A stretch of DNA of 64,000 nucleotides, taken from IMG/VR virus record IMGVR_UViG_3300035034_001897, positions 1 to 64,000 of that record, one strand, 5' to 3'. A program made the position numbers and the translations under genes. This document shows, one piece after another, positions 2,642 through 53,535 of the stretch (its first letter is position 1; each line of letters begins with the position of its first letter). The DNA is from a virus. Below the pieces are notes generated by a model. It was given only the letters and a program-made list of their open reading frames with translations, was not told where the DNA came from and did not search any database.

Positions 2642-2943
2642 GTATCTTAAAATCAAACAAAGCAGCATTTAAAAGTGGAGTGAAGTGGATGATTGATCAA
2701 ATCAATCAAGAACATCCAGTAAATCCATTCATTAAAGTGCACTTGTCAGCACAAGTACTGTTGCAATCACTCGACGACATTGAAGATGAAAGTGGATTCA
2801 AACATAACCTCAAACGACACGGAAAAATTGTGATGAGTGAGATTGAGAAGTTTGATAGTACAGTATTCAATCTTGCAAATCCAGACGATAAGAATGCGAT
2901 GGTCGCATACTTAAACGATCAACTTAACAAATTACAATTATAA
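2638..2943 (+). CDS. Hypothetical helical protein, TTG start
   Basis: 101 residues, mostly helical. The first available start is TTG at 2638, overlapping the preceding stop (TTGA); the next ATG (codon 18) would cut off a well-formed basic N-terminus, so TTG is preferred. The stop codon overlaps the next ATG (TAATG). Function unknown. Confidence 0.55.
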   Translation: MSILKSNKAAFKSGVKWMIDQINQEHPVNPFIKVHLSAQVLLQSLDDIEDESGFKHNLKRHGKIVMSEIEKFDSTVFNLANPDDKNAMVAYLNDQLNKLQL

Positions 2944-3236
2944 TGGGAGCAGTAACAGCACAAAAAAGAGTGAGCGAAGTCAAAGCGTATCAAATCACTC
3001 AAGAGGATCTAAATAATCCATACAAAGTAGGAGTGTGGATGTGTATGGTAAGTGAAAATCATAAGAATGCAGATAACGTATTGTTCGTAGATGATGGTGA
3101 GTTGAGAGTAGGAGTAGAGTTATCTCCATTACCACATTTAATTGAGGAGAATGAATTATTAGTGTTAGAGCAAGATAGATTTGTACACTACACTAACAAA
3201 CAATTTGAAAACAGATATCAAATAAATCAATTCTAA
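2943..3236 (+). CDS. Hypothetical protein
   Basis: 97 residues, mixed alpha/beta. Starts inside the previous stop (TAATG) and ends in the same overlap with the next gene, so three genes in a row (2638, 2943, 3236) are stop/start coupled. No recognised motif. Confidence 0.6.
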   Translation: MGAVTAQKRVSEVKAYQITQEDLNNPYKVGVWMCMVSENHKNADNVLFVDDGELRVGVELSPLPHLIEENELLVLEQDRFVHYTNKQFENRYQINQF

Positions 3237-8155: not shown

Positions 8156-8309
8156 ACAACAAAGAGAAGATTTCAAGAAAGCAGCAGAGCCATTGATGAA
8201 ATATTTAGCTGAGAATCACCACCCACATATGGAGGCGATTGTTAGTGGTGGCAGAGCAGAACTGCTTGAAAGTAAGTGTGTTCACAATACAGACAAGTTT
8301 ATATTGTAG
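8142..8309 (+). CDS. Small phage protein, HPHMEAIVSGGRAELLE type
   Basis: 55 residues. The pattern AAEPLMKYLAENHHPHMEAI...AELLE...NTDKFIL matches a small protein family common in phages and prophages, function unknown to me. Starts inside the preceding gene, a typical arrangement here. Confidence 0.6.
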   Translation: MIPTEQQREDFKKAAEPLMKYLAENHHPHMEAIVSGGRAELLESKCVHNTDKFIL

Positions 8310-8632: not shown

Positions 8633-8909
8633 AATCGAGCGACAGGAAAGTAGAATACAAGACCTAGATAATCAAGTCAATTCACTAAATAGAATCAAAA
8701 GTCACATTGATGTAGGTGCTGATGTAGGATACAAAGGTAATGAGAGTTGGGCAGTGATTTGTATTAAAGGTAAACCTGAATCAGTTAGGTTCATTGATCT
8801 GAGAGGAGTTGATGAAAGGCAACTAGTGATGTTCTTGAGAGACTTCGAGAAAAGAAATATGACACTAGACCTACCACCAATGCTGACAAGCTTAAAACAC
8901 AGATTCTAA
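8622..8909 (+). CDS. Hypothetical protein with N-terminal coiled coil
   Basis: 95 residues from the ATG at 8622; the frame is open further upstream to 8565 but that part overlaps the previous gene and reads as shadow. Residues 4-30 (IERQESRIQDLDNQVNSLNR) look like a short coiled coil, followed by a compact alpha/beta part. Stop overlaps the next ATG. Confidence 0.6.
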   Translation: MDTKIERQESRIQDLDNQVNSLNRIKSHIDVGADVGYKGNESWAVICIKGKPESVRFIDLRGVDERQLVMFLRDFEKRNMTLDLPPMLTSLKHRF

Positions 8910-9124
8910 TGGCAACGATAATTGAAAATTTAGATCAAGCAAGAGAGAATCGTACATCAGATCGTGTGTGTGGTGGATGTGGAGTTCAATTTCTATCAAA
9001 AGAGCAAATAGAAGGTGGTGGAGGTGTACATACAGCATATATAGACGATTGTGGCATATGTGGCAATAAAGGATTGACGTTGCCAATTCGTCACTATAAC
9101 AATTTATACAGACCAAATGAATAA
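8909..9124 (+). CDS. Zinc-finger-like small protein
   Basis: 71 residues with CxxC pairs at C21/C24 and C48/C51, spaced as in a four-cysteine zinc ribbon. Overlaps both neighbours. Function unknown. Confidence 0.55.
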   Translation: MATIIENLDQARENRTSDRVCGGCGVQFLSKEQIEGGGGVHTAYIDDCGICGNKGLTLPIRHYNNLYRPNE

Positions 9125-9392
9125 GCGCAAAATTCTTGTAGTAGGTTGGATAGGACATATAGATGTTGGTAGAACAACGCTTGCTCATACAGTAGCAAAG
9201 CGAATTGCACAAGAACTTGATACTGCAGTAGTTACAGCACAACAAGTAAAGCACGAAGCAGAATCACATTCATTCCCTACATCTGAACTTTTAGTGATTA
9301 CACGCCTACCAGACTTTGAGGAACCAATTATGCATATAAATAGAGGAGTGATTCCACCTAATCATTATAAAAGCAAGAAATGGAAGAGGTAA
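9117..9392 (+). CDS. Short protein with degenerate P-loop
   Basis: 91 residues. GHIDVGRTTL at residues 13-22 is a Walker A-like loop in which the essential Lys is replaced by Arg (G-x4-G-R-T). The protein is far shorter than a P-loop GTPase or kinase. The Arg substitution makes NTP hydrolysis doubtful. Overlaps the genes on both sides. Confidence 0.55.
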   Translation: MNKRKILVVGWIGHIDVGRTTLAHTVAKRIAQELDTAVVTAQQVKHEAESHSFPTSELLVITRLPDFEEPIMHINRGVIPPNHYKSKKWKR

Positions 9393-9688
9393 TTTACCAA
9401 TCAGCAATCGTATTTGTAACACAAATCATATTCTTGTGGGCACGAACATATAATGTAAGAGCAAATGCAATGTTACATATCAGAAACACACTCCTATCAG
9501 GAGCAATTATTCATATGGTTTGGTTGATATCAATTTCGATTGGTGCAAGTGGTGTGTACAAAGTGCTAGTTGATCACGATTGGAAGTTCGTTCCAGTTAT
9601 CATATTCTCATTAGGAGGGTCACTTATAGGTTGCTACATAGGACTTAGAAAAAGTATAAAAGCAAGGGATAACGAGTTGTATAAATAA
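9380..9688 (+). CDS. Small membrane protein, three TM segments
   Basis: 102 residues with TM segments near 3-20, 38-60 and 72-92 and a polar C-terminus. No diagnostic motif. A promoter overlaps its 3' end. Confidence 0.6.
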   Translation: MEEVIYQSAIVFVTQIIFLWARTYNVRANAMLHIRNTLLSGAIIHMVWLISISIGASGVYKVLVDHDWKFVPVIIFSLGGSLIGCYIGLRKSIKARDNELYK

Positions 9689-9708
9689 ATAATTAATATA
9701 TATCTTTA
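9677..9708 (+). promoter_or_regulatory. Promoter TTG-N21-TATCTTTA
   Basis: TTG at 9677-9679 and TATCTTTA at 9701-9708, spacer 21. It lacks the AGAAAGATA spacer text and dyad of the main family, so it may be read by the host sigma factor alone. Precedes the gene at 9730. Confidence 0.6.
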
Positions 9709-9729
9709 ACAAAAAACGTAAACAATATT

Positions 9730-10071
9730 ATGAACACACCAATATTAACAATGATCGACATACAGATCCAACTACTCATTCAATTAGGAATGCAAGCAAC
9801 AACAATCTTAGTAAGCCATTCTATAAAAGAATTATTTGAAGGTGAGATTCTTGCAACATTGAATGAGAACTCTCCGAAACACATCAATGTCGAGATGGAC
9901 ATTGAAGGATTAACTTATAGAGGATGTGAGGTTAACATTGAAGCAGTACCTGAACCGATTGTAGGAATGGAAAGAGCTATGATGGCAGCAACTTCATCAT
10001 ATGCAACATTATCTCCAATCACAGTGGTAGGATACTTACCAGAAACGCTGCAAGCTGAAGCTGAAGCGTAA
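9730..10071 (+). CDS. Hypothetical protein
   Basis: 113 residues, acidic, helical N-terminus then a beta-like middle (INVEMDIEGLTYRGCEV). First gene after the promoter at 9677-9708. Unknown. Confidence 0.6.
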   Translation: MNTPILTMIDIQIQLLIQLGMQATTILVSHSIKELFEGEILATLNENSPKHINVEMDIEGLTYRGCEVNIEAVPEPIVGMERAMMAATSSYATLSPITVVGYLPETLQAEAEA

Positions 10072-10302
10072 ATGGCTATCAAAACCGTACAGATCCGAAG
10101 TTATGGTGACGAAGTTTATATCGTCACCAATGACGGGATCGTAAAAGGAACAGTTGGCAATCGCACAATAGACTCCGAAGATGAGGTGGTTTATTCAATC
10201 AAAATAGGTGGCAAGTATCACTACATTAAAAAGAAACATCAACACGTATTTGAAGATTCAAAGTCACTAATCAAATACTATGAAAGTAACATCAAAGAAT
10301 GA
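10072..10302 (+). CDS. Small beta-rich hypothetical protein
   Basis: 76 residues with alternating beta-strand pattern (VQIRSYGDEVYIVTNDGIVKG). The start directly abuts the preceding stop; the end overlaps the next ATG. Unknown. Confidence 0.55.
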   Translation: MAIKTVQIRSYGDEVYIVTNDGIVKGTVGNRTIDSEDEVVYSIKIGGKYHYIKKKHQHVFEDSKSLIKYYESNIKE

Positions 10303-10398: not shown

Positions 10399-11379
10399 AT
10401 GAAAACATTAAATCAACACAATTACAACGGTATAGATGCAACTATCATAGCAGATAGTAAGAACGAAGTAGGTAATCGTATCACATCATTCATCATCACA
10501 TTACCTAGAATTGTACTTGCAGAACTCAACACGCACAGAGCATTAACTAGAAACAGTGCATCAAGTAGAGCAGTTCCTCACAAAGTGATGGTGCAGAAAT
10601 GTATTGACACACCATTCATTCCAATCAAATGGATGAAAGATCACTCAGGAATGCAAGGAAATGATTTCTTTGAAGAGCAGAAAGATATAGATTATTTAAC
10701 TAACGATTGGTTAGAGGCTAGAGATAGTGCGGTAACTCACGCTGAAAGAATGAGTAGTGGTGGACTAACAAAACAGATTGTTAACAGATTACTAGAACCC
10801 TTCATGTGGCACACGGTTATTTGTACGGCAACTGAGTGGGAAAACTTCTATGCATTACGAGCACACGATGCTGCAGAAATACACATAGCGAAGTTAGCAG
10901 ATATGATGCTAGAACAAGCAAACTTGAGCGAACCTAAGCTGTTACAAGCTGGTGAGTGGCACATTCCATTTGGAGACGAGATGGATTCTATGAGAATCAT
11001 AGATTGCATCAACGAATTACGTATCAATGGAACATTTGATAGTAATGGAGACCTTGAACAGCAAATCGCTAAAGTAAAAGTGATGATTGCTACTGCAAGA
11101 TGTGCAAGAGTGAGTTATCTTAACTTTGAAGGTAAAGACGACTACGATGCAGACATCAAATTACACAATAGACTGAGTGGTATGGCACACTGGTCACCAT
11201 TCGAGCATTGTGCACAAGCGATGTGTGAAAGAGACTTTGAGCCATTCGATCATATGGAAGGTGCAGTAGATTGGATTAACGATCTATTTGGATGGTCAGG
11301 TAACTTTAAAGGATTTGTTCAGTATCGTAAAACGTTTGCAGGAGAAAATAAATCAGATAATCGTTTAATAAAGAAATAA
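10399..11379 (+). CDS. thyX: FAD-dependent thymidylate synthase (ThyX)
   Basis: 326 residues. It makes dTMP from dUMP using FAD and methylene-tetrahydrofolate, supplying thymidine for phage DNA. Visible support is NTHRALTRNSASSRAVP (residues 44-60), corresponding to the ThyX RHR...SxR substrate/FAD motif, and HWSPFEHCAQ near the C-terminus, corresponding to the conserved H-x-PFEH. It is longer than the usual 220-260 residues because of an extended middle. Stop overlaps the next start. Confidence 0.85.
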   Translation: MKTLNQHNYNGIDATIIADSKNEVGNRITSFIITLPRIVLAELNTHRALTRNSASSRAVPHKVMVQKCIDTPFIPIKWMKDHSGMQGNDFFEEQKDIDYLTNDWLEARDSAVTHAERMSSGGLTKQIVNRLLEPFMWHTVICTATEWENFYALRAHDAAEIHIAKLADMMLEQANLSEPKLLQAGEWHIPFGDEMDSMRIIDCINELRINGTFDSNGDLEQQIAKVKVMIATARCARVSYLNFEGKDDYDADIKLHNRLSGMAHWSPFEHCAQAMCERDFEPFDHMEGAVDWINDLFGWSGNFKGFVQYRKTFAGENKSDNRLIKK

Positions 11380-11567
11380 TGAGAGATTTTATAAGTTTAA
11401 TGCTAGTATGCATATTAGGATTGTTAATAATAGCGATCTGGCTATTTCCATTAATATTGTGTGCAGTCACAGGAAACTGGTGGCTAATGTTTATATACTT
11501 TGCTTGGTGGATTCCAGCATCTATATTAACAAGACTATTGTCTGAATTTATGGAGTTAGTACAATGA
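11379..11567 (+). CDS. Small membrane protein, two TM segments
   Basis: 62 residues, nearly all hydrophobic, with TM stretches at about 5-28 and 32-52 and several Trp at the interfaces. TAATG overlap with thyX. Unknown. Confidence 0.55.
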   Translation: MRDFISLMLVCILGLLIIAIWLFPLILCAVTGNWWLMFIYFAWWIPASILTRLLSEFMELVQ

Positions 11568-11656
11568 AAATGGTAATAACTGCACTGGTGATCATTGTAG
11601 TATCAATATTTCTAGCAAATATTGATAACGATGATAGTGATCACTTAGCAATGTAA
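11564..11656 (+). CDS. Single-TM micropeptide
   Basis: 30 residues: one TM segment (about 3-19) then an acidic tail (NIDNDDSDH). ATGA overlap with the preceding membrane protein suggests co-translation. Confidence 0.4.
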   Translation: MKMVITALVIIVVSIFLANIDNDDSDHLAM

Positions 11657-11666
11657 AACACGTATT

Positions 11667-12008
11667 ATGAAAAAGATTGAAATATTCGCATTAATTAATC
11701 TATTCGCAGATCATTGTAAGTATGGAGTTGATTTAGATAAACTACTCAAAGACATTCAGAAGCTTCAAGATAAGAAGTTGTCAGAAAAGGAAATGAATGT
11801 ATTGGCTAGCAAATTAAAACTTCATCCAATACTCAGTCAGCTTACTATTCATTTATCGTATGTAAGTGAAGAGAATAAGAAGGATCAGAAATCTCGTTAC
11901 GAAATCGTATTAGATGATGAAGGTCAAGGTGTAGTTGAGGACAATATGATTTGGGTGCATACTTTAGTGTACGACCTAATATCGCATTTAAAGTATGGTG
12001 TAAAATAA
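11667..12008 (+). CDS. Hypothetical helical protein
   Basis: 113 residues, helical and charged (KLQDKKLSEKEMNVLASKLK). Last gene before the large non-coding region and its promoter. No family recognised. Confidence 0.6.
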   Translation: MKKIEIFALINLFADHCKYGVDLDKLLKDIQKLQDKKLSEKEMNVLASKLKLHPILSQLTIHLSYVSEENKKDQKSRYEIVLDDEGQGVVEDNMIWVHTLVYDLISHLKYGVK

Positions 12009-12024
12009 ATTAAATTATTTTCGA

Positions 12025-12096
12025 TTAAATGTTGTCAGAAAGATATAAAGGTACTACCTTTATATCATAAGGAAATAGTAATAGTACAACATTTAA
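12025..12096 (+). promoter_or_regulatory. Phage promoter with 12-bp perfect dyad (operator-like)
   Basis: TTG at 12032-12034, 20-base spacer, TACCTTTA at 12055-12062. GATATAAAGGTA (12042-12053), one base, then TACCTTTATATC (12055-12066) is a perfect 12-1-12 palindrome covering the -7 box. A second perfect inverted repeat, TTAAATGTTGT (12025-12035) and ACAACATTTAA (12086-12096), brackets the promoter. It stands before a 38-residue gene and the structured RNA region. Confidence 0.8.
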
Positions 12097-12108
12097 AAAT
12101 CGGAAATT

Positions 12109-12225
12109 ATGACACCAACACAAGTAGAAATCGCAACAGCAGTAACGATAGCAGTAGTATTAATCGTAATTTTCATCAAGTTCGGAGGACTGAGCGGTGG
12201 AGCACGAAACGCAATATTCAGATAA
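12109..12225 (+). CDS. Single-TM micropeptide
   Basis: 38 residues with one TM segment (about residues 8-25) and a Gly/Arg-rich tail. Well supported for its size: the promoter lies 47 bases upstream and AAAATCGG (12096-12103) five bases before ATG. It immediately precedes the structured RNA region, so it may be the only protein on that transcript. Confidence 0.55.
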   Translation: MTPTQVEIATAVTIAVVLIVIFIKFGGLSGGARNAIFR

Positions 12226-12229
12226 CATT

Positions 12230-13310
12230 TAAGATAGGTTACCAATCATAGTGTAGAGTCTTCTCAACCTAAAAGCACGTCTGCAAATTAGCAGAAAGAG
12301 AATCGCTAGGAGTGATTCAGAGAGGTACAGCAAACAAAAGTTCATTGACATATTGAAGTGAGAGAATGATCAAATAGGCAGTAGTCAATCTCGTACTATC
12401 TTATAGTACCAGACATTATGACAGAGCCATCGAAAGAATAGATCACTCATCTTGCGACTGGGAACGATGCGCTCGCAAGGTGTACTCTGAATCTTTCACT
12501 TCAATATAACTTAAACTACCCTACGTGTAAATGCAATAATCTCCTCTTGCCAGGATCAAAGATTTACAGTTCTTTAAGGGGCGTGCAGATAAATGTGAGT
12601 CTGTAACAAACACACTAGTGAGAGCCTTCGAGCCAATTTTCATTGGGAAGCAGTATCTAGCGAACGTATAACGGCTAGTGTGTTTTAAAATACAAGGTTT
12701 AGATCGTGGACACCTAATCAGTAGAATCGTGGCGTAACCTGAGTGAAATTAGATCTTATTAAACTTTGGTGATTCTTAGTGGAAAAGTGAAAGTAGTAGC
12801 TGAAAACCTCCGTTTCGAAAAGACGCTTGTGAAAGAATGTCCTGCTTACAATAGATTGCTGTGTGAGAACTTCAATTGGATTGAGATAGAAACGAAAGTA
12901 TTGAAGAAGTCTGTCTATCATCACTGACAGAGGGGTATAGAGTTAGCGTACGACAATAACTCTATATGCGACCGAAAAATCGATGATGTGGAATAATATG
13001 TGTGTAGCTCAGTAGGTAGAGCGCTGGTTAATACTTAGCGTCAGTGGTTCGATCCCACTCCACATTCAAATGAGGCATCGTTATGCAAAACTATTGTGAA
13101 GTTCCGTGATAAGTATCTTGAGGGTTGAGTGCACATACCGATAATAGAGAAAGTGGAACAGAACTGTAAGAAAGGAACAGTCTTTCAGTTCGTTGAAAGT
13201 AGAACGATGCTAAAGAATTGCTTTATAGAGTGGCGTAATCAACTCTTGCAGTGGTGTAGGTAGGGAAGGAGATGTTTCCTCAATTAAATTCCCTAACTTC
13301 ACGCCAAACA
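12230..13310 (+). ncRNA. Large structured non-coding RNA region
   Basis: About 1.08 kb with no credible gene. It is packed with perfect inverted repeats: 7 bp at 12300/12312, 12 bp at 12350-12361/12496-12507 enclosing hairpins at 12393/12403 and 12451/12473, 7 bp at 12526/12562, 11 bp at 12608-12618/12675-12685, 10 bp at 12936-12945/12957-12966, 6 bp at 13161/13186 and 13231/13301 with 7 bp at 13261/13289 inside. It also holds a tRNA-like cloverleaf at 12985-13066. GCATCGTT (13075-13082) can pair with AACGATGC at 13203 or in the loop at 12463. Size, phage setting and tRNA association recall the GOLLD and ROOL large ornate RNAs; class membership is not tested. It may be one RNA or several. Confidence 0.7.
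12985..13066 (+). tRNA. tRNA-like cloverleaf, probably not a normal tRNA
   Basis: D-arm GCTC-AGTAGGTA-GAGC (13007-13022), anticodon arm GCTGG-TTAATAC-TTAGC (13023-13039, two G-T pairs, anticodon AAT at 13030-13032) and a perfect T-arm AGTGG-TTCGATC-CCACT (13043-13059) are present. The acceptor is odd: GATGTGG (12985-12991) pairs with CCACATT (13060-13066) only if 13 extra bases sit before position 8; the alternative ATGTG (12998-13002) gives five pairs. Base 26 seems missing, the variable loop is three bases, and no CCA follows. It looks like a decayed tRNA or tRNA mimic inside the larger RNA. Confidence 0.5.
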
Positions 13311-13318
13311 ATAATATT

Positions 13319-13567
13319 ATGAAAAAGTTAATTTTTATATTACTAACAATATGCTGCATAAGTGTGCAAGCTCAGAGTAAGAAGGTTGTGATGACTATGG
13401 AGATCACTATACAAAGTGATAATCAATGTAAGTTAGATACTACTAAAGTGATTAAGAACATAAAAAAGGATACTTTATCGAAAGTAGTATTGGTCAAGAT
13501 AAATGCATTAATAGCATCGAAATCTAATGACAGTATCATCAAAAGTAGTTATTACGATTTTAAATAG
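13319..13567 (+). CDS. Small secreted protein
   Basis: 82 residues with a clear Sec signal peptide (MKKLIFILLTICCISVQAQ, cleavage after AQ as is usual in Bacteroidota) and a basic mature part of about 63 residues. It follows the structured RNA with an A/T leader ending AATATTATG. Export of a phage early product to the periplasm suggests an envelope role such as superinfection control; this is inference. Confidence 0.6.
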   Translation: MKKLIFILLTICCISVQAQSKKVVMTMEITIQSDNQCKLDTTKVIKNIKKDTLSKVVLVKINALIASKSNDSIIKSSYYDFK

Positions 13568-13579
13568 TATATTTATCGA

Positions 13580-13800
13580 ATAGAGAACTGAAACCGACCA
13601 GCTCTTAAAATATTAGAAGATGTAGGCAACTACATCAAGTGTACCAGCTGTATAGTAATATGTTGGATATGGGTGAAAGTTGGAATAAGTTATTTAGAAT
13701 ATACCAGCAACTAGCCAAGCACTTAGGAGTTTACAGCAAGAACTTAAATCGTTCCCGATAATCGATTTTATTTCGCGACCTCATTGAGGTGCTAATTTTT
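13580..13800 (+). ncRNA. Structured gene-free stretch, possible small RNA
   Basis: No gene. GATGTAG-GCAA-CTACATC (13619-13636) is a perfect 7-bp hairpin closed by a GNRA tetraloop, inside CAGCT (13599-13603)/AGCTG (13646-13650). A TATATTTA box lies at 13568-13575 just upstream, without a visible TTG. ACCTC-ATT-GAGGT near 13780-13793 followed by TTTTT could terminate it. It may be a separate RNA or a structured leader of the next gene. Confidence 0.45.
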
Positions 13801-13821
13801 AACTTAATACCCTTTTCAATA

Positions 13822-14187
13822 ATGAAAAAGTTTATTTTTACAGTGTTAGTGATGATTGCCTTCGTAGGAACATCATTCGCAACAACAGCCACAATCCAGT
13901 CAACCATTCAAGATGACCATCCAATCTTTGTATTAGATTACGATGTGAATATTACAGCTGGAGATTTCAATTTTGATGCAAACCTGGAAACATATACTGT
14001 CAAAGCAGTCACCGACGAGGTCGGATATGAACCCACATCACTTATTAAAAATACGAAAGCGTTAGCAGTACAGCCGATCACTTTATTTGAGAGGGCAATT
14101 TATCGATATGATAATCGAATGCCAATCAATAAATACATACAAGTAAAAAGTTATAAGCAGTTTGCCTCATACGACTTAATGATGTAG
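13822..14187 (+). CDS. Secreted hypothetical protein
   Basis: 121 residues from the ATG at 13822; the frame is open upstream to 13789 but the hairpin/T-run lies there and the chosen start gives a clean signal peptide (MKKFIFTVLVMIAFVGTSFA). The mature part has no recognised domain. Ends just before a strong terminator, so it closes a short unit of RNA plus secreted genes. Confidence 0.65.
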   Translation: MKKFIFTVLVMIAFVGTSFATTATIQSTIQDDHPIFVLDYDVNITAGDFNFDANLETYTVKAVTDEVGYEPTSLIKNTKALAVQPITLFERAIYRYDNRMPINKYIQVKSYKQFASYDLMM

Positions 14188-14210
14188 TAACAATGCTAAC
14201 AAATATATTG

Positions 14211-14242
14211 AAAGTCCTTAGCAAAAGTTAAGGACTTTTTTT
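14211..14242 (+). terminator. Rho-independent terminator
   Basis: AAAGTCCTTA (14211-14220), 8-base loop, TAAGGACTTT (14229-14238) then a T run to 14242. Separates the RNA/secreted gene unit from the tagged-protein cluster. Confidence 0.85.
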
Positions 14243-14271
14243 GTTATATTTATCACCCAATTATCGATTGA

Positions 14272-15459
14272 ATGAACTTAGACGATCAAATTAGAAATAG
14301 CATTACACAAAGACGTGATGTCATTGCAGGTAACATAGTTAAAGGTAAACCATCTATGCCAATTGGAACCATTTCAAATGGTCGTAAAAAGATAGCAGAA
14401 GGTCAGTGGAGAGATGTTGTTGATGGAAACAAAAAGCCTAAACAAAACAAAGAGAAGATTAAACTCAGTGCAAAAGTGCTTGCATTAAATGAGAAACATC
14501 AACTCAGTCGATTGCCAATAGATATGCCTCATAATGAAGTGATCATCAATAAAGGTGAAGCGAAAAGTAATTGGATTCTCAAATGGATTGATCCTAAAAC
14601 ACAGAAGGCAGTTACAGCATATAGTAAAGCATTTCTCAAGAAGAATGCACAAGACAAATGGAAGCGTATAGAAAACGTATCTAAGAAAGATATCAGTGCA
14701 ATCAAGATTGGTGCAGACAAATTGATAGTAGGTAGTAATGCTGCTGAACAACAAAGTGGTGCCATAGTAAGCATCATCAGTCAAACTGGGTTGAGACCTG
14801 GAAGTAGAAGTGGTTTCAACAGCACACAAAACAGAGGAGTAAGTACACTCGCTAAAAAGAATATCAAGATTGAGGGAAGTAAAATCACTTTTGAATTCAA
14901 AGGTAAATCGTACAAGAACAACACTGCTGAGATAAATGATAGTGTATTAGCTAACTATCTCAGTGAAAGAATGAGTAAGGTTAAAGGAGAAGACTCCTTC
15001 ATATTCAATACTACAATTAACAAGGTAAGAGATGACTTTAAAGATAGTATCACACCAAATGATTCTATCAAACTCAAAGATATGCGAACATACATAGCAA
15101 CTGACATTGCGAGAGATATGTTAATGCACAATAAATTTGAAGTGCCTCAAAAAGGTGCAAAGAAAGCAATACAAGGTAAGTTGATGGAAGTATTTAAAGC
15201 TGTAAGTAATCAGCTGAACAATAGTCCTACAATGGCTAAAACAAGCTATATTCATCCTAACGTAATCAATGAATGGCTAGAAGGTTTAGGTGTGAAAGAA
15301 GCAGATATGTTTATGATGAAAGCTGTCAATTACACTGAGGCATTAAAAGCAATGAAACTTAGAAGAGACCCTGACAATATTGAGGGGGACGATAACGAAG
15401 ATTTTGACGATATTGATGAATATAATCTACCAGATTGGTGGGACCCAACATTACAATAA
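14272..15459 (+). CDS. Topoisomerase IB-like enzyme with N-terminal tag
   Basis: 395 residues. Type IB topoisomerases nick one strand through a tyrosine and relax supercoils. The catalytic set is visible: R175 in QTGLRPGS, K212 in FEFKGKS, R272 in LKDMRTYIAT and Y326 in MAKTSYIHP, in the correct order. The first 50 residues carry the tag shared with four or five other proteins here (QIRNSITQRRD...IVKGKPSMPIGTISNGRKK...GQW). The tail is acidic (residues 365-395). Virion delivery is an inference from the tag; a purely intracellular role in replication or packaging is equally possible. Confidence 0.85.
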   Translation: MNLDDQIRNSITQRRDVIAGNIVKGKPSMPIGTISNGRKKIAEGQWRDVVDGNKKPKQNKEKIKLSAKVLALNEKHQLSRLPIDMPHNEVIINKGEAKSNWILKWIDPKTQKAVTAYSKAFLKKNAQDKWKRIENVSKKDISAIKIGADKLIVGSNAAEQQSGAIVSIISQTGLRPGSRSGFNSTQNRGVSTLAKKNIKIEGSKITFEFKGKSYKNNTAEINDSVLANYLSERMSKVKGEDSFIFNTTINKVRDDFKDSITPNDSIKLKDMRTYIATDIARDMLMHNKFEVPQKGAKKAIQGKLMEVFKAVSNQLNNSPTMAKTSYIHPNVINEWLEGLGVKEADMFMMKAVNYTEALKAMKLRRDPDNIEGDDNEDFDDIDEYNLPDWWDPTLQ

Positions 15460-22070: not shown

Positions 22071-24413
22071 ATGAAAAAAATATTTAGTATTGCATTAATT
22101 GCATTAACAGCAACAACTCTTTTTGGTCAAGACAAAGAGTTTGCGGGAACTGTTACAATTAAAAACACACCAACCGCAATAAGCACGGATTCAATAAGCG
22201 TTATTAAACCCGATGGAACAGTAGGTAAATCTAATGTACAAGTAGGTAATGTTGTGAAGTTAACTGGAGAAACTAGTCAAACTGTTGAAGGACAAATTGA
22301 AATACAAGACAGATTAACTGTAAAAGGACTAGCAAATACTGAATCTGCAACAAGAACTAGTGTTGACATAACAGGGAAAACAGGAGCAGGTAACGGATGG
22401 GCAGGAGTTGATTTGTTAAGTGGATATACTCATACACCTGGAGTTACTGACCCTTTGGTTACTGATGTAGTTGCCGTTGGAAACGTTGCTTATGCTATAA
22501 CAGTAACAGTAAGTAATTTAACTGCTGGAAGATATGAATACTTCATTTTTGGAGGTACTAGGGTGAATATGTATGTGGGGAATGGTCAAAGAGTTTTCGT
22601 TTTCAAGACTGTAGATACATCACCTTTACAAATTTTTATAACAAACACGGCAACTGATGGAGATATAAAAATTGACTCTGTAGAGAGAGTAAATTCAGAT
22701 AAAGAAAGTGTTTTTGATATTAAAAATTCATCTAATGCTATTGTATCGGAAACTAGATATGGAAATGGTTCTGTTTATTTCGGGAGTAAAAGCGGAGTAT
22801 CTAGTTCGAGTGCTAGTTCACTAAATACTGCTTTTGGTCATAATGCAATAGAAAAAGCTGTATCCAGCAGATACCTTACAGCTGTAGGTACTCATGCTCT
22901 TAGACAAGTAATAGGAGGAAGTTATATGACAGCTATTGGTGCTAATGTATTTTCTAGAGGTTTCTCCCATACAGGCAGTAATTACTATAATGTAGGCATA
23001 GGAGGAAATGTAGGGAATGCTCCTGACGCTAATTTTTCGAATTCTATTTTTATGGGGTTTTCAGTAGCTGAAAAACTTGAAGCAGGACATAGTAATATAG
23101 GTATTGGTTGTTTGGCTTTAGGAGAGGCAGTATCTAGCTCAAGAAATGTAGCTATTGGAAATAATAGCTTAAGAAATTTACTAACAGGATCTTCTAATAC
23201 AGCTTTAGGGATTGATACTTTAGTAAGACTTATAGAAGGAACTGATAATGTGGCTATAGGGTTTGCAGCAGGAAATTTTTCATCTTCGGGAAACAATGAA
23301 ACTTCTTTTAGGTCAATCTTTATAGGTAAAAATACTAAGTCTCTTGCAGATGATCAATTCAATCAAATTGTAATAGGTAACGACGCCATTGGGAACGGTT
23401 CAAATACAGCTACCATAGGGGACGATTCGATTACAGATACTTATTTGAAAGGTGTTGTTCACGCAGATTCTTTTGATGGGGTTTTAAAGAACATTAAAGA
23501 TTCAAACGGTGTTCAATTAGGTACTGTAGATCAAGATTTATTATTAGGAGAAGAATTAACTTTTAATAACACTACTAAGAAAATAGATGTAGCTAATGTA
23601 GTTAAAAAAACTGGAGAAACTAACCAATCTATTGCAGGAAATATTACTGTGAGTAATAAAATTACTTCCACAGAATTAGATGTATTTGCTGATGACTTAC
23701 CTACTAGAATTGGTCGACACTCAGTTCAACATCTAAAAATATATGGGAATTCTACTGGTAATTATTTACTAGGTGTAGGATCTAAAAACGCTATTTTTGG
23801 TAAAGAAGATAAAGGTGTTTTGCTATTTAGAGCAGACGGTATCCAAATATCGACTCTAGCAATTCCTAATAGGTACGATTTATTTATTAAAAATGATACT
23901 GGAGATGTTGGCGTAAATAATAAATTCCCAACAGAAAAACTACACGTAAATGGAAACGTAAAAGCAACAAACTTTATTGGTAATTTAAGTGGTAATGCAA
24001 CTACTGCTAGTAATGCAAATTTATTAGGAGGTGAATTGCCTGCTTTTTATGCAACTCAAGAAGATGTTGAGTACAAAACAAATGGAATTGTAATACCAAG
24101 AACTAAATTACCTTTAACACAATTTCAAGTAGGTACAGACCAATTGTATTATACTGTAGTTGGTAATAGATTGATATTGACAGGCAATTATAAAGTGACT
24201 ACAGGTAACCCTTCTACACTAGCTGTGGGAACTTTACCTATAGAAGCAAGGTCAGAAATAACAAGGACTATACCTATATTAATAAACTCTAGCGCTGCTT
24301 CAATAACTATTAATACAGATGGAGATATTACTTTAGACTTGTCGGGTTTTTCGACAACTTCTACAAATAAGACAATAAAAATAGATACAGAGGTAACATT
24401 ATTAAAACTATAA
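22071..24413 (+). CDS. Fibre-like adhesin with Sec signal peptide and YadA/Hia-type head repeats
   Basis: 780 residues. A signal peptide (MKKIFSIALIALTATTLFGQ) is followed by beta-rich modules with KLTGETSQTVEG and KKTGETNQSIAG repeats (about 64 and 515). A central block (about 245-450) repeats the trimeric autotransporter head pattern NVAIGNNSLRN, NTALG, NIGIGCLALGEA. The part EKLHVNGNVKATNFIGNLSG (about 625-644) is typical of tail fibres. So it is a trimeric, receptor-binding or adhesin-like protein. A Sec signal on a tail fibre is unexpected: the protein may be exported to the host surface, or the signal may be a relic of host origin. Confidence 0.75.
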   Translation: MKKIFSIALIALTATTLFGQDKEFAGTVTIKNTPTAISTDSISVIKPDGTVGKSNVQVGNVVKLTGETSQTVEGQIEIQDRLTVKGLANTESATRTSVDITGKTGAGNGWAGVDLLSGYTHTPGVTDPLVTDVVAVGNVAYAITVTVSNLTAGRYEYFIFGGTRVNMYVGNGQRVFVFKTVDTSPLQIFITNTATDGDIKIDSVERVNSDKESVFDIKNSSNAIVSETRYGNGSVYFGSKSGVSSSSASSLNTAFGHNAIEKAVSSRYLTAVGTHALRQVIGGSYMTAIGANVFSRGFSHTGSNYYNVGIGGNVGNAPDANFSNSIFMGFSVAEKLEAGHSNIGIGCLALGEAVSSSRNVAIGNNSLRNLLTGSSNTALGIDTLVRLIEGTDNVAIGFAAGNFSSSGNNETSFRSIFIGKNTKSLADDQFNQIVIGNDAIGNGSNTATIGDDSITDTYLKGVVHADSFDGVLKNIKDSNGVQLGTVDQDLLLGEELTFNNTTKKIDVANVVKKTGETNQSIAGNITVSNKITSTELDVFADDLPTRIGRHSVQHLKIYGNSTGNYLLGVGSKNAIFGKEDKGVLLFRADGIQISTLAIPNRYDLFIKNDTGDVGVNNKFPTEKLHVNGNVKATNFIGNLSGNATTASNANLLGGELPAFYATQEDVEYKTNGIVIPRTKLPLTQFQVGTDQLYYTVVGNRLILTGNYKVTTGNPSTLAVGTLPIEARSEITRTIPILINSSAASITINTDGDITLDLSGFSTTSTNKTIKIDTEVTLLKL

Positions 24414-26946: not shown

Positions 26947-28649
26947 ATTATACCATTCCTACATCACAAGCATCATCATCACTCGACAGTGAACTACAGA
27001 GAATTCAAGTCGAGAAGGGTCAGATTGCTCAACGAGAATATAGAGCACTATCTCAAGCATTGTCATCAGACAATCCTAATGACATCATTAAAGCCAATAC
27101 TTATTGGGAAGATGTTCAAAACAGACAAGATAGTGGAGTCAAAACTAGACTAGTTGATCCTAATGAATGGACTCAAGGTGCTGGCTATAAACATAAAAGA
27201 TTTCAACTAGATTATAGTACATTGAGAAGGATGGTGTCAACTACTCCTATCATTAAAGCTATTGTAGGAACTAGACAGGCTCAAGTGAGTGCGTTTTCAA
27301 CTCCACAGAAGAGTAAGTATGAAACTGGATTCGTTATTCGTAAGAAAAGGGAGTTTTATACAGACGAAGAGCCTATTGTAACTCGAGAAGATAAGCAGAC
27401 TATTAATGAATTAACGAAATTCATTCTTAATGGTGGTGATGACGAAAATGCGTGGAATGGAGACACTTTTGATACGTTTCTTAAAAAACTAGCAAACGAC
27501 TCACTAACGTTAGATCAAGCGTGTTTTGAAATAGTTAGAAGTAATAAAGGTGAGCCAGTTGAATATCTAGCAGTAGATGGAGCGACAATAGTATTAGCAG
27601 ACACACATAACGATGAGCAAGAGGTTGTTGATAGAGAATATGATCACGCAGGAAATAAACGTAAAAGAGTAAGAGGCTATTTACCATCATACGTTCAAGT
27701 AATTGATTCAGTAATTCACAATGAATACTATCCTTGGGAAATGTGTATGGGAATTAGAAATTCTACTACAGATATCAGATCGAATGGGTATGGTAAAAGT
27801 GAAGTAGAGGAATTAGTTAGTATTATTACTTGGATGTTATATGGAGACACATATAACGGAAAATTTTTTAGTCAAGGTAGCAATCCAAAAGGAATGCTTA
27901 AAGTAGGTTCAGGAGTTAATAGAAACCGACTCGCAGAGTTTAGACAGCAATGGTTATCAATGGTAGCTGGAGTTCAGAATGCTTGGAAGGTTCCAATGGT
28001 TGAGGGAGATGTTGAATGGATTGATATGCAGAAAGGCAATCGAGATATGGAGTTCTCGGCGTGGCAAGAATACTTGATAAAGGTTGCGTGTGCAGTATTT
28101 AAGATCGCACCAGAAGAGGTTGGATTTAATATCGATAAGAGTGGAGGTCTTGGTGGAGAAAATGATAGCGATGTCAAAATTAGATATTCGAGAGATAAAG
28201 GATTGAAGCCAATGCTGAAATCATTTGAGTTCTGGATTAATAAGTGGTTAGTTGCTCCTAAAAATGCAGACTTTGAGTTTAAGTTTGTAGGATTAGATAC
28301 AGATAGTGAAGAGAAAGAGGTTGAACTACTCAATAAAAAAGTTGAGCATGGAATGGGTCTTAAAGAATATCGTCGTGCAATTGGATTGCCAGAAGATTTA
28401 GAAGAAGGAGACTTCCCACTTAACAATATATATGTTCAAATGCAAGGACAATTAGCAATGCAAGAGCAGAGTGAAGAAAATGGAGAATTCGTTGATCAAG
28501 ATCAGGCAAGTGAAGAAGATGATTTCTGGAACAGTATTGATATGGAAAAAGGTGTGCTTGATCAAATGAATCAATTGAAAGTGTATAAAGGCAACCCTAT
28601 GATGAAGGATGCATTAAATATGTTAATTGGAGATGGAGCAGCAAAATAA
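26934..28649 (+). CDS. Portal protein
   Basis: 571 residues. Portal proteins form the 12-fold ring through which DNA enters and to which the tail attaches. Support: size; QLDYSTLRRMVSTTPIIKAIV near the start; FFSQGSNPKGMLKVGSG in the middle; and WQEYLIKVACAVFKIAPEEVGF, the usual portal stretch before the wing. An acidic, Met/Gln-rich C-terminus follows. Head morphogenesis, protease and capsid genes lie downstream in the usual order. Confidence 0.85.
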   Translation: MSYLDYTIPTSQASSSLDSELQRIQVEKGQIAQREYRALSQALSSDNPNDIIKANTYWEDVQNRQDSGVKTRLVDPNEWTQGAGYKHKRFQLDYSTLRRMVSTTPIIKAIVGTRQAQVSAFSTPQKSKYETGFVIRKKREFYTDEEPIVTREDKQTINELTKFILNGGDDENAWNGDTFDTFLKKLANDSLTLDQACFEIVRSNKGEPVEYLAVDGATIVLADTHNDEQEVVDREYDHAGNKRKRVRGYLPSYVQVIDSVIHNEYYPWEMCMGIRNSTTDIRSNGYGKSEVEELVSIITWMLYGDTYNGKFFSQGSNPKGMLKVGSGVNRNRLAEFRQQWLSMVAGVQNAWKVPMVEGDVEWIDMQKGNRDMEFSAWQEYLIKVACAVFKIAPEEVGFNIDKSGGLGGENDSDVKIRYSRDKGLKPMLKSFEFWINKWLVAPKNADFEFKFVGLDTDSEEKEVELLNKKVEHGMGLKEYRRAIGLPEDLEEGDFPLNNIYVQMQGQLAMQEQSEENGEFVDQDQASEEDDFWNSIDMEKGVLDQMNQLKVYKGNPMMKDALNMLIGDGAAK

Positions 28650-35473: not shown

Positions 35474-36034
35474 ATGGCAAAAGTAAAAACAAACAAATCG
35501 TTCGAGTTCGGAAAGACAAGAGTGACTTCAGTAGAGACTTTAGAGTTTGATGATCAAGGAATCTCACAAGAGATTTCAAATGAAGATGCAGCATTGCTTG
35601 TGAAAGCATCACCTTCACTAACATTAGTGCAAGAGCAAGATCAACTACCAGACCCATCATTAAACGAAGAGGGTGATGTAGGCAATAAAAAACTTGATGA
35701 AACTCCTCTAATCAAAGAAGTAAAGCAAGAAGCTATCAAACCAAAAGCAGAGGTAACTGACGCTATCGTAACAGATGCAGCAGATGTTATTGAAGTGAAA
35801 GGAGAAGTTGAAATTATCGAAGATGTAGTTGAGGGAGATAAGGTTGAAGTTGTTGAAACAGCACTTGACGATGCAATTACGCCAACATTCACTAAAGAGC
35901 AATTAGGTGAAATGGGAATGGGTGATTTGAGAGATGCTTTAATTAAAGCTGGAGTAGCTGAAATTGAAGTCGAGAAGTATAAAGGAAGAGAGATGAAAGA
36001 TGAATTAGTTGACTTCGCTTTTAGCAAACTATAA
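35474..36034 (+). CDS. Acidic structural-region protein
   Basis: 186 residues. N-terminal basic part, long acidic Val/Glu-rich linker (about 85-135), and a C-terminal helical motif (FTKEQLGEMGMGDLRDALIKAGV...EMKDELVDF) like a SAP or HeH DNA/protein-binding hairpin. A TATATTTA box lies at 35431-35438 without a TTG. First gene after the capsid; probably head-associated. Confidence 0.6.
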   Translation: MAKVKTNKSFEFGKTRVTSVETLEFDDQGISQEISNEDAALLVKASPSLTLVQEQDQLPDPSLNEEGDVGNKKLDETPLIKEVKQEAIKPKAEVTDAIVTDAADVIEVKGEVEIIEDVVEGDKVEVVETALDDAITPTFTKEQLGEMGMGDLRDALIKAGVAEIEVEKYKGREMKDELVDFAFSKL

Positions 36035-36816
36035 TGGCTACACTATCATATTCATTAAAATCAAGTAAGAACGATTTGCCAATTTCTCCTGAGGAGTTGG
36101 CAAATCGTTACTTCTTTGGGATACCTATAAAAGATCCTAACGGAACCGTAATGAATAATGCTAACATTGGATTTTATATCAATGCAGCAGTGCAATCTAT
36201 TGAAGGACTGTTAAACATAAAACTAACCAAACAAGTTATTGAAGAATCTTTATCATATCATTTGAATGATTATGCATCTTGGGGATATATTCCTACAAGT
36301 TTTCCAGTACTTAAAGCTGGAGGATTAGCAGGGTTTTTAGGAAAAGTTCAGCAAGTAAAATTTCCTGCACAATGGTTAAGTGTTAAAAGAACAAACGATC
36401 CGACTGGAGCTCATAGAAAAATACAGATAGTACCTACATCAGGAAATGTTGAACACGGAAGTGTTGAGTATAGTGGAATAAGTCAATATATGGGATGGTT
36501 CGGTCAGCAAACAATTCCAGACTATTGGACAGTAAAGTATTGCACATCGTTTGATATAATTCCAGCAGACATTGCAGATGCAGTAGGAAAACTAGCTGCA
36601 ATTAACATATTCCATCAATTAGGAGACATTATTTTAGGTGCTGGTATAGCCTCTCAAAGTATAGGTATAGATGGACTATCTCAAAGTATATCGACAACTT
36701 CATCAGCAACCAACGCTGGATATGGAGCAAGAGTTACTGGATATCTTGCAGATTTAAAGCAAGCGAGAACAGATTTAAAAAATAAATACGACGGAATAGC
36801 GTTAAGCATAATGTAA
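36034..36816 (+). CDS. Head-tail connector (neck) protein
   Basis: 260 residues. The C-terminal half (IPADIADAVGKLAAINIFHQLGDI... to YLADLKQARTDLKNKY) is characteristic of neck adaptor proteins in large myoviruses. It would sit under the portal. Single-base overlaps on both sides place it in the neck operon. Confidence 0.65.
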   Translation: MATLSYSLKSSKNDLPISPEELANRYFFGIPIKDPNGTVMNNANIGFYINAAVQSIEGLLNIKLTKQVIEESLSYHLNDYASWGYIPTSFPVLKAGGLAGFLGKVQQVKFPAQWLSVKRTNDPTGAHRKIQIVPTSGNVEHGSVEYSGISQYMGWFGQQTIPDYWTVKYCTSFDIIPADIADAVGKLAAINIFHQLGDIILGAGIASQSIGIDGLSQSISTTSSATNAGYGARVTGYLADLKQARTDLKNKYDGIALSIM

Positions 36817-37616: not shown

Positions 37617-38374
37617 TAGATTTAAACATAGATACTAGTGAACTATCAGCAGAATTCAATCTAACAAAGCAAGAAGTTGACGGACTACTTACTTATAGTG
37701 TAGATGAAGTCTCAGCTCAGTTCGCTCAACAATGGGCAACAGAAGTTAAGTCAAGTTTAGCTAGCACTAGAAGTCAATATATTAACGCAATAATAATATC
37801 TAAAAGAGATCAATTTACAAATGTAGTGTATCTCAATCCAGCTAGTTGGTTAGCAAATGCAATAGAAATGGGAGCTAGTGCATTTGATATGAAGAAAGGA
37901 CTTCTTGCATCTAAAAAAGTAAAATACACTAAAAAGGGGAAGCCTTACATTACAGTACCTTTTAGATTTGCAACTCCTGATGCGATAGGAGAAAATGGAG
38001 CTTTTTCAGGAGTAATGCCTCAAGCAGTATATAAATCTGTTAAAAATCAAGCACCTAAACAATCTTTATCGTTGAACAGTATACCTTCTCAATATCAAAT
38101 TCCTAAGAATATTGGAATACGAAAACAAGTCAAGAGTGGTAACTTTAAAAACTTAACTGCAAAAACTAAGATGACTTCAATTTATGAAGGAATGCAAAAA
38201 AGTAAAGGAGGGTATGTTACTTTTAGAAGAGTTAGTTTGAGTAGTGATGCACAAAGTTGGAATCATCCAGGTTTTGAAGCAAGAGATTTTGCTGGAACAG
38301 CGCTTAACAATCTCAACATTCCTCAAATAGTAGACGTATCAATCGATAGTTATTTATCGCAATTAGGATTTTAA
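37613..38374 (+). CDS. Tail completion / neck protein, GTG start
   Basis: 253 residues starting at GTG (GTGA overlap with the previous stop). Contains NPASWLANAIEMGASAFDMKKGLL..., like the conserved part of HK97 gp10-type neck proteins in which a virion tail-completion factor contacts the tail. Assignment by position and that segment. Confidence 0.6.
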   Translation: MIDLNIDTSELSAEFNLTKQEVDGLLTYSVDEVSAQFAQQWATEVKSSLASTRSQYINAIIISKRDQFTNVVYLNPASWLANAIEMGASAFDMKKGLLASKKVKYTKKGKPYITVPFRFATPDAIGENGAFSGVMPQAVYKSVKNQAPKQSLSLNSIPSQYQIPKNIGIRKQVKSGNFKNLTAKTKMTSIYEGMQKSKGGYVTFRRVSLSSDAQSWNHPGFEARDFAGTALNNLNIPQIVDVSIDSYLSQLGF

Positions 38375-38375
38375 T

Positions 38376-39050
38376 ATGGCACTAATTATTCCAGAAGTTC
38401 AGTTATGCACAATCATAGATGCATTATTGAAACACATTAAGTTAGATTTTGAAGCAAAGGTAGTTACGCCTGAGAAGTCTTTACTATATAATTATTTCAA
38501 TGGAATTGTTGACCATAAAAAAGATTACTATAAAGAGGCTGTAGATTTATTTACTAGAGAAGCAGATCATCCTAGACTAATAGAAACGAGATTAGCATTC
38601 GATGCAGAGCGAGCTAAAATTCCTACAATACATATTACTATGCCTAGCGATCAAACTGGTCAAAATAGCTTAGGAATAGGAGAGTCGGGAATGGCAGATT
38701 ATGTTAATTATATTGATGGTGAGGTTAGTGTTGAATATGAAAGAAGATTTGATACTCAATATCAAATTGTATGCACATCTGATCAACATTCAGAAGTGAT
38801 GTTGATGTATCATTTGGTTAGAGCTGGATTAATTAGTATATTAGACACTTTCTCATTAACTGGATTAGAAGATCCAAAATTGTCGGGTCAAGAATTAAAA
38901 ATAAATCCTGATTTAATGCCATCTCATATATTTATGAGAGCGATTGGAGTAAGTTTTTCTTACGAAATTAAAGTATCTAGGTGGTGGAATGAGGATATAA
39001 TAAACGATCTTTGTTTAGATCAAAATCAAATATACGATAATGAGCAATAA
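38376..39050 (+). CDS. Probable tail terminator protein
   Basis: 224 residues, alpha/beta, two genes upstream of the tail sheath where tail terminators usually lie. Segment QYQIVCTSDQHSEVMLMYHLVRAGL resembles tail-terminator folds that cap the tube. Not a confident family match. Overlaps the next gene by 11 bases. Confidence 0.5.
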   Translation: MALIIPEVQLCTIIDALLKHIKLDFEAKVVTPEKSLLYNYFNGIVDHKKDYYKEAVDLFTREADHPRLIETRLAFDAERAKIPTIHITMPSDQTGQNSLGIGESGMADYVNYIDGEVSVEYERRFDTQYQIVCTSDQHSEVMLMYHLVRAGLISILDTFSLTGLEDPKLSGQELKINPDLMPSHIFMRAIGVSFSYEIKVSRWWNEDIINDLCLDQNQIYDNEQ

Positions 39051-52155: not shown

Positions 52156-53535
52156 ATGAATACATTAACTATAAAAGTTTTAGCAAAGCAACTTAATGCA
52201 CCTATTGTGAGTGCAGGCAAAGATATTATTCAACAATTACCTGAAAATTCAGTAATTATACAAGGGTCTGCAAACGATCCGGATGGAACAATTCAAAGCA
52301 CTCAATGGACTCAAATTGCAGGACCTTTAGTGACATTACAAACTCCAAATTCATTAGCATTACAAATACAGAGTTTGCAGGATGGACAATATGAGTTTCA
52401 ATTATCGGTAACAGATAATGATGGACAGATGTCTAGTGACTCGATGAAATTATCTGTGTTACAAGCAAACAACATTCCTATTGCAGATGCTGGAGTAGAT
52501 GGCTCTATTGAAGTGAGTCCGGTTGGAGTGAGTAATACAACTACAAGTCAATTGCCTCTAAATGCGTATCAACTGATTGGAAATGGAAGCGATACAGACG
52601 GAACAATTGAAGGGTTTGAGTGGGCAATTATAAATCAACCTAATGGAGCTAGTGCATTTTTTCAAAATGACAATAACGCTATTGCAAATCCAGTAGTTGA
52701 AGGACTGTCTATTGTAGGAGATTATACTTTACAATTAACTGTTATCGATGACGATGGAGCTTTTGGAATGGATACGATGATGATTACAGTAAACCCACAA
52801 GCCAATCAAGCACCAAAGATCAATTCTATAGGACCAATGATAGATGACTCTAACAAGTTTATGGGCAATATGCCTGGTGCAATAAATACGTTTGGTCATT
52901 CAGAATTCTGGAAGTTTGACGTATCAGCTACAGATCTTGAAGGAAATGATATTAATGTAGCAGTAACATTGATGGACAGTAATCAGAATCCAGTATTTAC
53001 AGACAATACTAAGATAATTGTAGGAGGAAATGGAATAGCGACATATACATTACCAACACTCAATGTAGGTAATCAATTAAGTCCACAATCTTATGAGCTG
53101 CAAATAATTGTGGACGATGGAAGTGGAAACTCAACAGATCAAACTTTCAAAATTGACCTTTTCAATTCATCCAACAATAACATTGCAAATGGAGGATTAT
53201 TGCTACAAAAAGGAGTTAGCCCAAAAACTAAAAACGGATGCTTCACAAATTATCAATCAACATTCACAGTACCAAAAGGTCAGACTGGATCGTTAGTTAT
53301 AAATGAAATTGACGGAACAATCTCCTCTCAGAGTGGAACTCCTTTAAATAACATTGGACCAGGAGTATATACTTGGAGTGTAAGTTTAAATAATAGTGCA
53401 CAAGTAGGAGTGGAAACTACAGTCGAAGTCGTTTCAAGTTTGAGTGGAGGAGAAAATGGAATTTTAACGCTAAAAAGACAAGCGTCAGATAACGCTAACT
53501 ACGACGGATCAATCTGTCAACTATCACAAAGCTAA
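52156..53535 (+). CDS. PKD-repeat tail protein
   Basis: 459 residues. At least two PKD/REJ-like repeats: SANDPDGTIQSTQWTQIAGP...LSVTDNDGQ and GNGSDTDGTIEGFEWAI...LTVIDDDGAF, then a third weaker repeat. These Ig-like domains mediate surface or sugar contacts. Located in the wedge/fibre region, consistent with an adhesive tail appendage. Stop overlaps the next start. Confidence 0.7.
   Translation: MNTLTIKVLAKQLNAPIVSAGKDIIQQLPENSVIIQGSANDPDGTIQSTQWTQIAGPLVTLQTPNSLALQIQSLQDGQYEFQLSVTDNDGQMSSDSMKLSVLQANNIPIADAGVDGSIEVSPVGVSNTTTSQLPLNAYQLIGNGSDTDGTIEGFEWAIINQPNGASAFFQNDNNAIANPVVEGLSIVGDYTLQLTVIDDDGAFGMDTMMITVNPQANQAPKINSIGPMIDDSNKFMGNMPGAINTFGHSEFWKFDVSATDLEGNDINVAVTLMDSNQNPVFTDNTKIIVGGNGIATYTLPTLNVGNQLSPQSYELQIIVDDGSGNSTDQTFKIDLFNSSNNNIANGGLLLQKGVSPKTKNGCFTNYQSTFTVPKGQTGSLVINEIDGTISSQSGTPLNNIGPGVYTWSVSLNNSAQVGVETTVEVVSSLSGGENGILTLKRQASDNANYDGSICQLSQS

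Follow-up and report, generated by a model that had tools for sequence, protein, structure and literature searches.

The reasons for which phages encode tRNAs and large noncoding RNAs, frequently next to each other, are still being worked out, and the question is raised here by a locus in which a tRNA-like element with a displaced acceptor stem lies inside a noncoding stretch of ~1.1 kb. The locus belongs to the window, the 64-kb stretch of DNA that was analyzed, which is the first part of a 78.9-kb virus record. The capsid protein is nearest to those of SPO1-type phages, with Bacteroides phages DAC16 and SJC03 and Chryseobacterium phage MA9V-3 followed by the Herelleviridae, and the source of the window is an SPO1-related bacteriophage of Bacteroidota-type hosts.

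Architecture of the tRNA-like element

The element (12985–13066, plus strand) is tRNA-derived and is a real cloverleaf. The D-stem is formed by 13007–13010 and 13019–13022, the anticodon stem by 13023–13027 and 13035–13039 with two G-U pairs, and the 7-nt anticodon loop, TTAATAC, retains U33 and places AAT at positions 34–36. The T-arm (13043–13059) is perfect, with the strands AGTGG and CCACT enclosing TTCGATC, and the invariant bases of the T-loop and D-loop are all kept, as are U8, A14, and G18G19. A preliminary description of the locus had reported these three arms and the loss of base 26; reading of the sequence finds each arm where it had been placed and base 26 missing. The exact 23-nt D-arm pattern occurs in seven IMG/VR contigs, every one an ordinary tRNA gene.

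ARAGORN, a check proposed in that description, calls the element as tRNA-Ile(AAT) at 12997–13067 on the plus strand, in a form whose adjacent acceptor strand leaves one U bulged or mismatched, and finds no further tRNA in the whole record. The Rfam tRNA model (RF00005) gives 31.7 bits against a cut-off of 29 with permissive filters only and misses the element with standard filters, compared with 40–72 bits for those tRNAs of related SPO1-type phages that exceed the cut-off.

The 3' acceptor strand CCACATT has two possible 5' partner strands, which are mutually exclusive. In the adjacent strand (12998–13004), ATGTG (12998–13002) pairs with CACAT (13061–13065) and G13004 pairs with C13060 across a bulged U, and both ARAGORN and Rfam score this acceptor of five pairs plus one across the bulge. 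Pairing of the adjacent strand shows that a canonical 7-pair acceptor adjoining U8 is absent. The distal strand (12985–12991) pairs with 13060–13066 at 7/7 positions, one of them G-U, and is separated from U8 by an insertion of 13 nt (12992–13004). With both pairings evaluated on the native sequence, the cloverleaf energy is −14.9 to −15.7 kcal/mol with the adjacent acceptor and −20.8 kcal/mol with the distal one, which is favored by ~5–6 kcal/mol, and within the whole stretch the pairing probability is 0.84 for the distal acceptor and 0.002 for the adjacent one. The earlier statement that the acceptor closes only with 13 extra bases holds for the perfect distal stem, but the adjacent stem does close in part.

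In the distal form, seven acceptor pairs and five T pairs stack to 12 bp, and the 5' side bulges. The copies of ATGTG in the two acceptor strands lie 12 nt apart, which suggests a small duplication. As had been described, no CCA is encoded after the acceptor, where the 3' base run is CAAA; because the ARAGORN-called tRNA-like elements of related phages also lack an encoded CCA (printed 3' ends and context), its absence is uninformative and carries no weight.

The noncoding stretch and its conserved modules

The noncoding stretch (12233–13315, plus strand) lies between the end of a 38-aa ORF at 12224 and the start of an 82-aa ORF at 13319, and no ORF of at least 80 aa is present between 12009 and 13318. 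The G+C content is 0.396 compared with a mean of 0.348, placing the stretch in the top 2% of 1-kb windows, and Rfam scans at gathering and permissive thresholds match tRNA as the only family. The folding-energy z-score is −0.8 overall and positive across 12450–13200, an ordinary value that does not indicate one ornate fold. The large RNA of the preliminary description is thus borne out as an ORF-free, G+C-richer stretch and not as a single ornate fold. A hairpin domain (12350–12507, plus strand) with a 16-bp, 94% complementary closing stem (12350–12365/12492–12507) appears in both MFE and centroid predictions. Upstream, a pattern scan places a putative Bacteroidota-type promoter (TTG ... TACCTTTA) at 12032–12062, the single plus-strand site within 11000–14500 and one of 19 on the plus strand of the window. 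Downstream, the sequence reads as a terminator-like hairpin (AAAGTCCTTA...TAAGGACTTTTTTT) at 14211–14243 on the plus strand, and the two sites could allow a single transcript. A topoisomerase IB of the eukaryotic/poxvirus type (PF01028) is encoded at 14272–15459.

Conserved structure along the whole stretch is not seen among 67 related records, and within the stretch only the modules termed elements A and C recur. Element C (12511–12612, plus strand) is a two-helix domain in common with an RNA cluster of phage MA9V-3 (~38260–38358, minus strand), and the score of this similarity is reached by 1 of 1000 shuffles. All 11 pairs of its helices hold in both the window and MA9V-3, with five changed on both sides compared with 0–1 such pairs in slid controls; the covariation is good but not blind because the helices were picked after viewing both sequences. 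A looser element C pattern gave four matches in IMG/VR and the genomes and was set aside, as the two inspected (L170 and L172) are coding and a tRNA is missing from all four loci. Element A (13220–13248, plus strand) is a short leader motif, GCTTTATAGAGTGGCNTAATYAACTCTTG, just upstream of the small ORF, and is also found in FpV4-type Flavobacterium phages and in IMG/VR contigs L011–L016. In the unrelated Flavobacterium psychrophilum phages and in other contigs it stands alone before small ORFs.

Element B (AGAGAACTGAAACCGACCAGCTC...; 13580–13800 with approximate ends, plus strand) is noncoding and lies downstream of the 82-aa ORF. It recurs in unrelated phages at 8300–8680 of L016 (L016/L027), 2622–3000 of L028, and 50–390 of L029, and no capsid-protein match is present in the other phage records carrying it. 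A match to element B in G018 was discarded as coding sequence; a separate match in Javan275 was set aside as well, falling in annotated coding sequence. The phage record L028 is rich in tRNA matches (about 30), and downstream of element B (~2900–3100) it holds a tRNA-like structure whose single acceptor stem apparently encloses two T-arms. L016 has a 1.2-kb noncoding region (8880–10115, minus strand) placed like the stretch of the window relative to a small ORF and element B; the two have no alignable sequence, and an ARAGORN tRNA is absent there.

Related phages and their tRNA-like elements

A capsid-protein profile search returned 80 loci with a top identity of 81%, and the related set was composed of the 17 largest records (major capsid protein 45–81% identical) and 50 further records. 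A homologue of the whole 1.1-kb stretch is found in 0 of these 67 records. The 17 largest contain none, and the 50 further records give short matches only, consisting of an ordinary tRNA D-arm and of 22 nt in one contig, the latter taken as chance. Full reading of eight relatives found neither the topoisomerase near the stretch nor the small ORFs flanking it. Close relatives were reached through the capsid alignment and not through exact peptides of the topoisomerase or of the phrog_1250 protein. The stretch is therefore an accessory region of this phage, and as it has no homologue in relatives the conservation of the tRNA-like element, known from one phage among the records searched, cannot be judged. 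Homologous loci, whose comparison had been proposed as another check, were found for modules A and C and not for the stretch as a whole. The proposed placement inside an ornate RNA is upheld to the extent that two neighboring modules are conserved, one of them covarying, and not with respect to a whole homologue or the flat folding statistics.

The RNA cluster of MA9V-3 (PV245944) occupies 0.9 kb of noncoding sequence (37655–38560), in which element C sits between two aberrant tRNA-like elements on the minus strand (38402–38490 and 38122–38219). One has an insertion in the anticodon loop and one, of 98 nt, is annotated as tRNA-Gln. The cluster resembles the stretch of the window in being a noncoding region with aberrant tRNA-like structure and a covarying element C. 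In MA9V-3, however, the insertions are in the anticodon or variable region, whereas that of the window is beside the acceptor, and beyond element C the two sequences are unalignable. In a third T-arm-ended structure of MA9V-3 (~37810–38022, minus strand), a long insertion separates the T-arm from the 5' part.

SPO1-related relatives among the Bacteroidota phages often carry noncanonical tRNA-like elements. Those of G011 have an 8-nt and a 6-nt anticodon loop, L016 has one of 119 nt with an insertion, and those of G019 (36475–36546; L180) and G021 (81592–81663; L179) have a 5-bp anticodon stem and the identical 6-nt loop GACTAA, each directly upstream of a tmRNA that is standard in G019 and permuted in G021. 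The element of the window is in keeping with this pattern, but what is unusual about it lies at the acceptor. Standard tmRNAs (RF00023) exceed the cut-off in the close relatives G008, G010, and G019 and in two Fpv-type contigs, L012 and L014. Permuted ones (RF04321) exceed it in 7 of 20 Bacteroidota-type phage records, including the closest relative G007 (22936–23185), and the others are in G011 (61683–62024), G014 (52341–52556), G021 (81679–82008), G001 (35836–36060; L016), G005 (27716–27907), and MA9V-3 (L030; 22857–23081). A tmRNA origin of the element of the window, standard or permuted, was rejected, there being no tmRNA model match in the record. G010 also has a possible ochre suppressor tRNA with anticodon TTA (90676–90750; L182), and the gene beside this candidate follows the permuted tmRNA in G011.

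Possible roles and relation to known systems

The element has a tRNA-type elbow formed by the signature bases of the D- and T-arms, its distal acceptor is clearly more stable, and its neighboring modules have homologues. The reading preferred here, with somewhat less than even confidence, is that of a noncanonical tRNA-derived module in a long noncoding transcript of several structured modules, perhaps serving as an RNase P/RNase Z processing site. The element would descend from a phage-borne tRNA, and its stacked distal acceptor and T-arm would be seen as tRNA by host RNase P and RNase Z, which may cut the polycistronic noncoding transcript and so determine where the flanking RNA modules begin and end; in addition, the element itself may survive as a tRNA-like product. 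As RNase P and RNase Z recognize the acceptor/T-arm stack, here of 12 bp, a processing site would be the most economical active role, and the maturation by host RNases or anchoring put forward in the preliminary description would be plausible. The structured neighborhood, with the covariation of element C, elements A and B, and the raised G+C content, would favor this modular reading, as would the ARAGORN and Rfam calls, the stability of the distal acceptor, the placing of element C between aberrant tRNA-like elements in MA9V-3, and the noncanonical elements of relatives. Against it, no homologue in the 67 related records keeps the element, the folding energy is ordinary, and the acceptor is followed by CAAA in place of RCCA, the 3' run usually contacted by bacterial RNase P. 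The element probably does not decode: its AAT anticodon would call for inosine 34, which bacterial TadA makes mainly in tRNA-Arg(ACG), and its adjacent acceptor stem is broken.

A serious competitor, almost as likely since no relative preserves the element and conservation therefore does not speak for function rather than decay, is a decaying phage tRNA gene that lies accidentally in a noncoding region and is now inactive, its acceptor disrupted possibly by the small duplication. The low score relative to the tRNAs of related phages, the bulged acceptor, the missing base 26, the two G-U pairs in the anticodon stem, and the absence from relatives are all consistent with decay, and the weak score, disrupted adjacent acceptor, lost base, weak anticodon stem, and AAT agree with the earlier description of a mimic or decayed tRNA. 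Random decay, however, would be expected to strike the T- and D-arms too, and these retain a perfect D-loop, T-arm, and set of elbow signature bases; moreover, a full 7-bp alternative acceptor exists upstream, and the RNA modules around the element seem to be maintained. It is improbable that the element is a working or decoy tRNA whose altered anticodon arm resists or soaks up host anticodon nucleases. Anticodon-loop changes in phage tRNAs have been proposed to evade tRNA nucleases (PMC10264068), and unusual loops occur in the relatives, such as GACTAA in two phages, but the loop in the window is a normal 7 nt, it is the acceptor and stem that are damaged, the host of this phage has no known cognate nuclease, and the broken acceptor makes charging doubtful.

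Equally improbable is a tRNA domain that would be covalently part of a cage-forming large RNA by analogy with GOLLD, whose linkers sometimes contain tRNAs (PMC12286853). Noncoding RNAs of 635 and 1154 nt are abundant in phage K, which is related by capsid type, and lie near its tRNA genes (PMC9241854). The GOLLD model including its conserved 3' domain, however, matches nothing at E up to 10, either in the record of the window or in six others, the ROOL model has none in the record (control genomes in the by-name search gave no match either), and the folding z-score is −0.8. Because other phages have parts of the stretch by themselves, a single co-evolving RNA is not indicated. Toggling between two tRNA-like folds, with CACAT pairing with either copy of ATGTG, is suggested by the presence of both mutually exclusive strands at 12-nt spacing; such a switch is very improbable, as the distal form wins by 5–6 kcal/mol, no balanced equilibrium is predicted, and no ligand or partner is known. 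Chance resemblance to tRNA is favored by the failure of standard Rfam filters to pick up the element but is the least probable account of all, given that 150 dinucleotide shuffles of the window (9.6 Mb) yield 0 ARAGORN calls and that every invariant T-loop and D-loop base is present.

On a bolder reading, the stretch might represent a separate family of long noncoding RNAs in phages, distinct in origin from GOLLD and ROOL, with swappable structured modules and a built-in non-decoding tRNA-like domain, although this is rather unlikely. Such a family would join a wider habit of SPO1-related Bacteroidota phages, in which anticodon or acceptor arms are altered, often near standard or permuted tmRNAs. 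A tRNA elbow kept while the normal acceptor and decoding are seemingly given up would suggest a role in processing, as a decoy, or as a scaffold. A directly testable system is provided by MA9V-3, since this Chryseobacterium phage is in culture and has both a related RNA domain and aberrant tRNA-like elements.

In relation to known systems, the element shares with canonical tRNA (RF00005) the D-arm, a 7-nt loop with U33, the T-arm with TTCGATC, U8, A14, and G18G19. It differs in the bulged adjacent acceptor with a stable acceptor 13 nt further 5', the loss of base 26, the weak anticodon stem, A34, and a score of only 31.7 bits. tmRNA, common in the relatives of this phage, likewise combines tRNA-like ends with extra RNA, whereas in the element of the window the anticodon arm is complete and a tag reading frame is absent. 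The locus is like ROOL (RF03087) as a large phage noncoding RNA near tRNA genes and like GOLLD (RF02032) as a large phage noncoding RNA region associated with tRNA, the tRNA-like element here being inside the stretch. The long noncoding RNAs of phage K, SPO1-related by its capsid as is the phage of the window, are a further likeness by description (PMC9241854).
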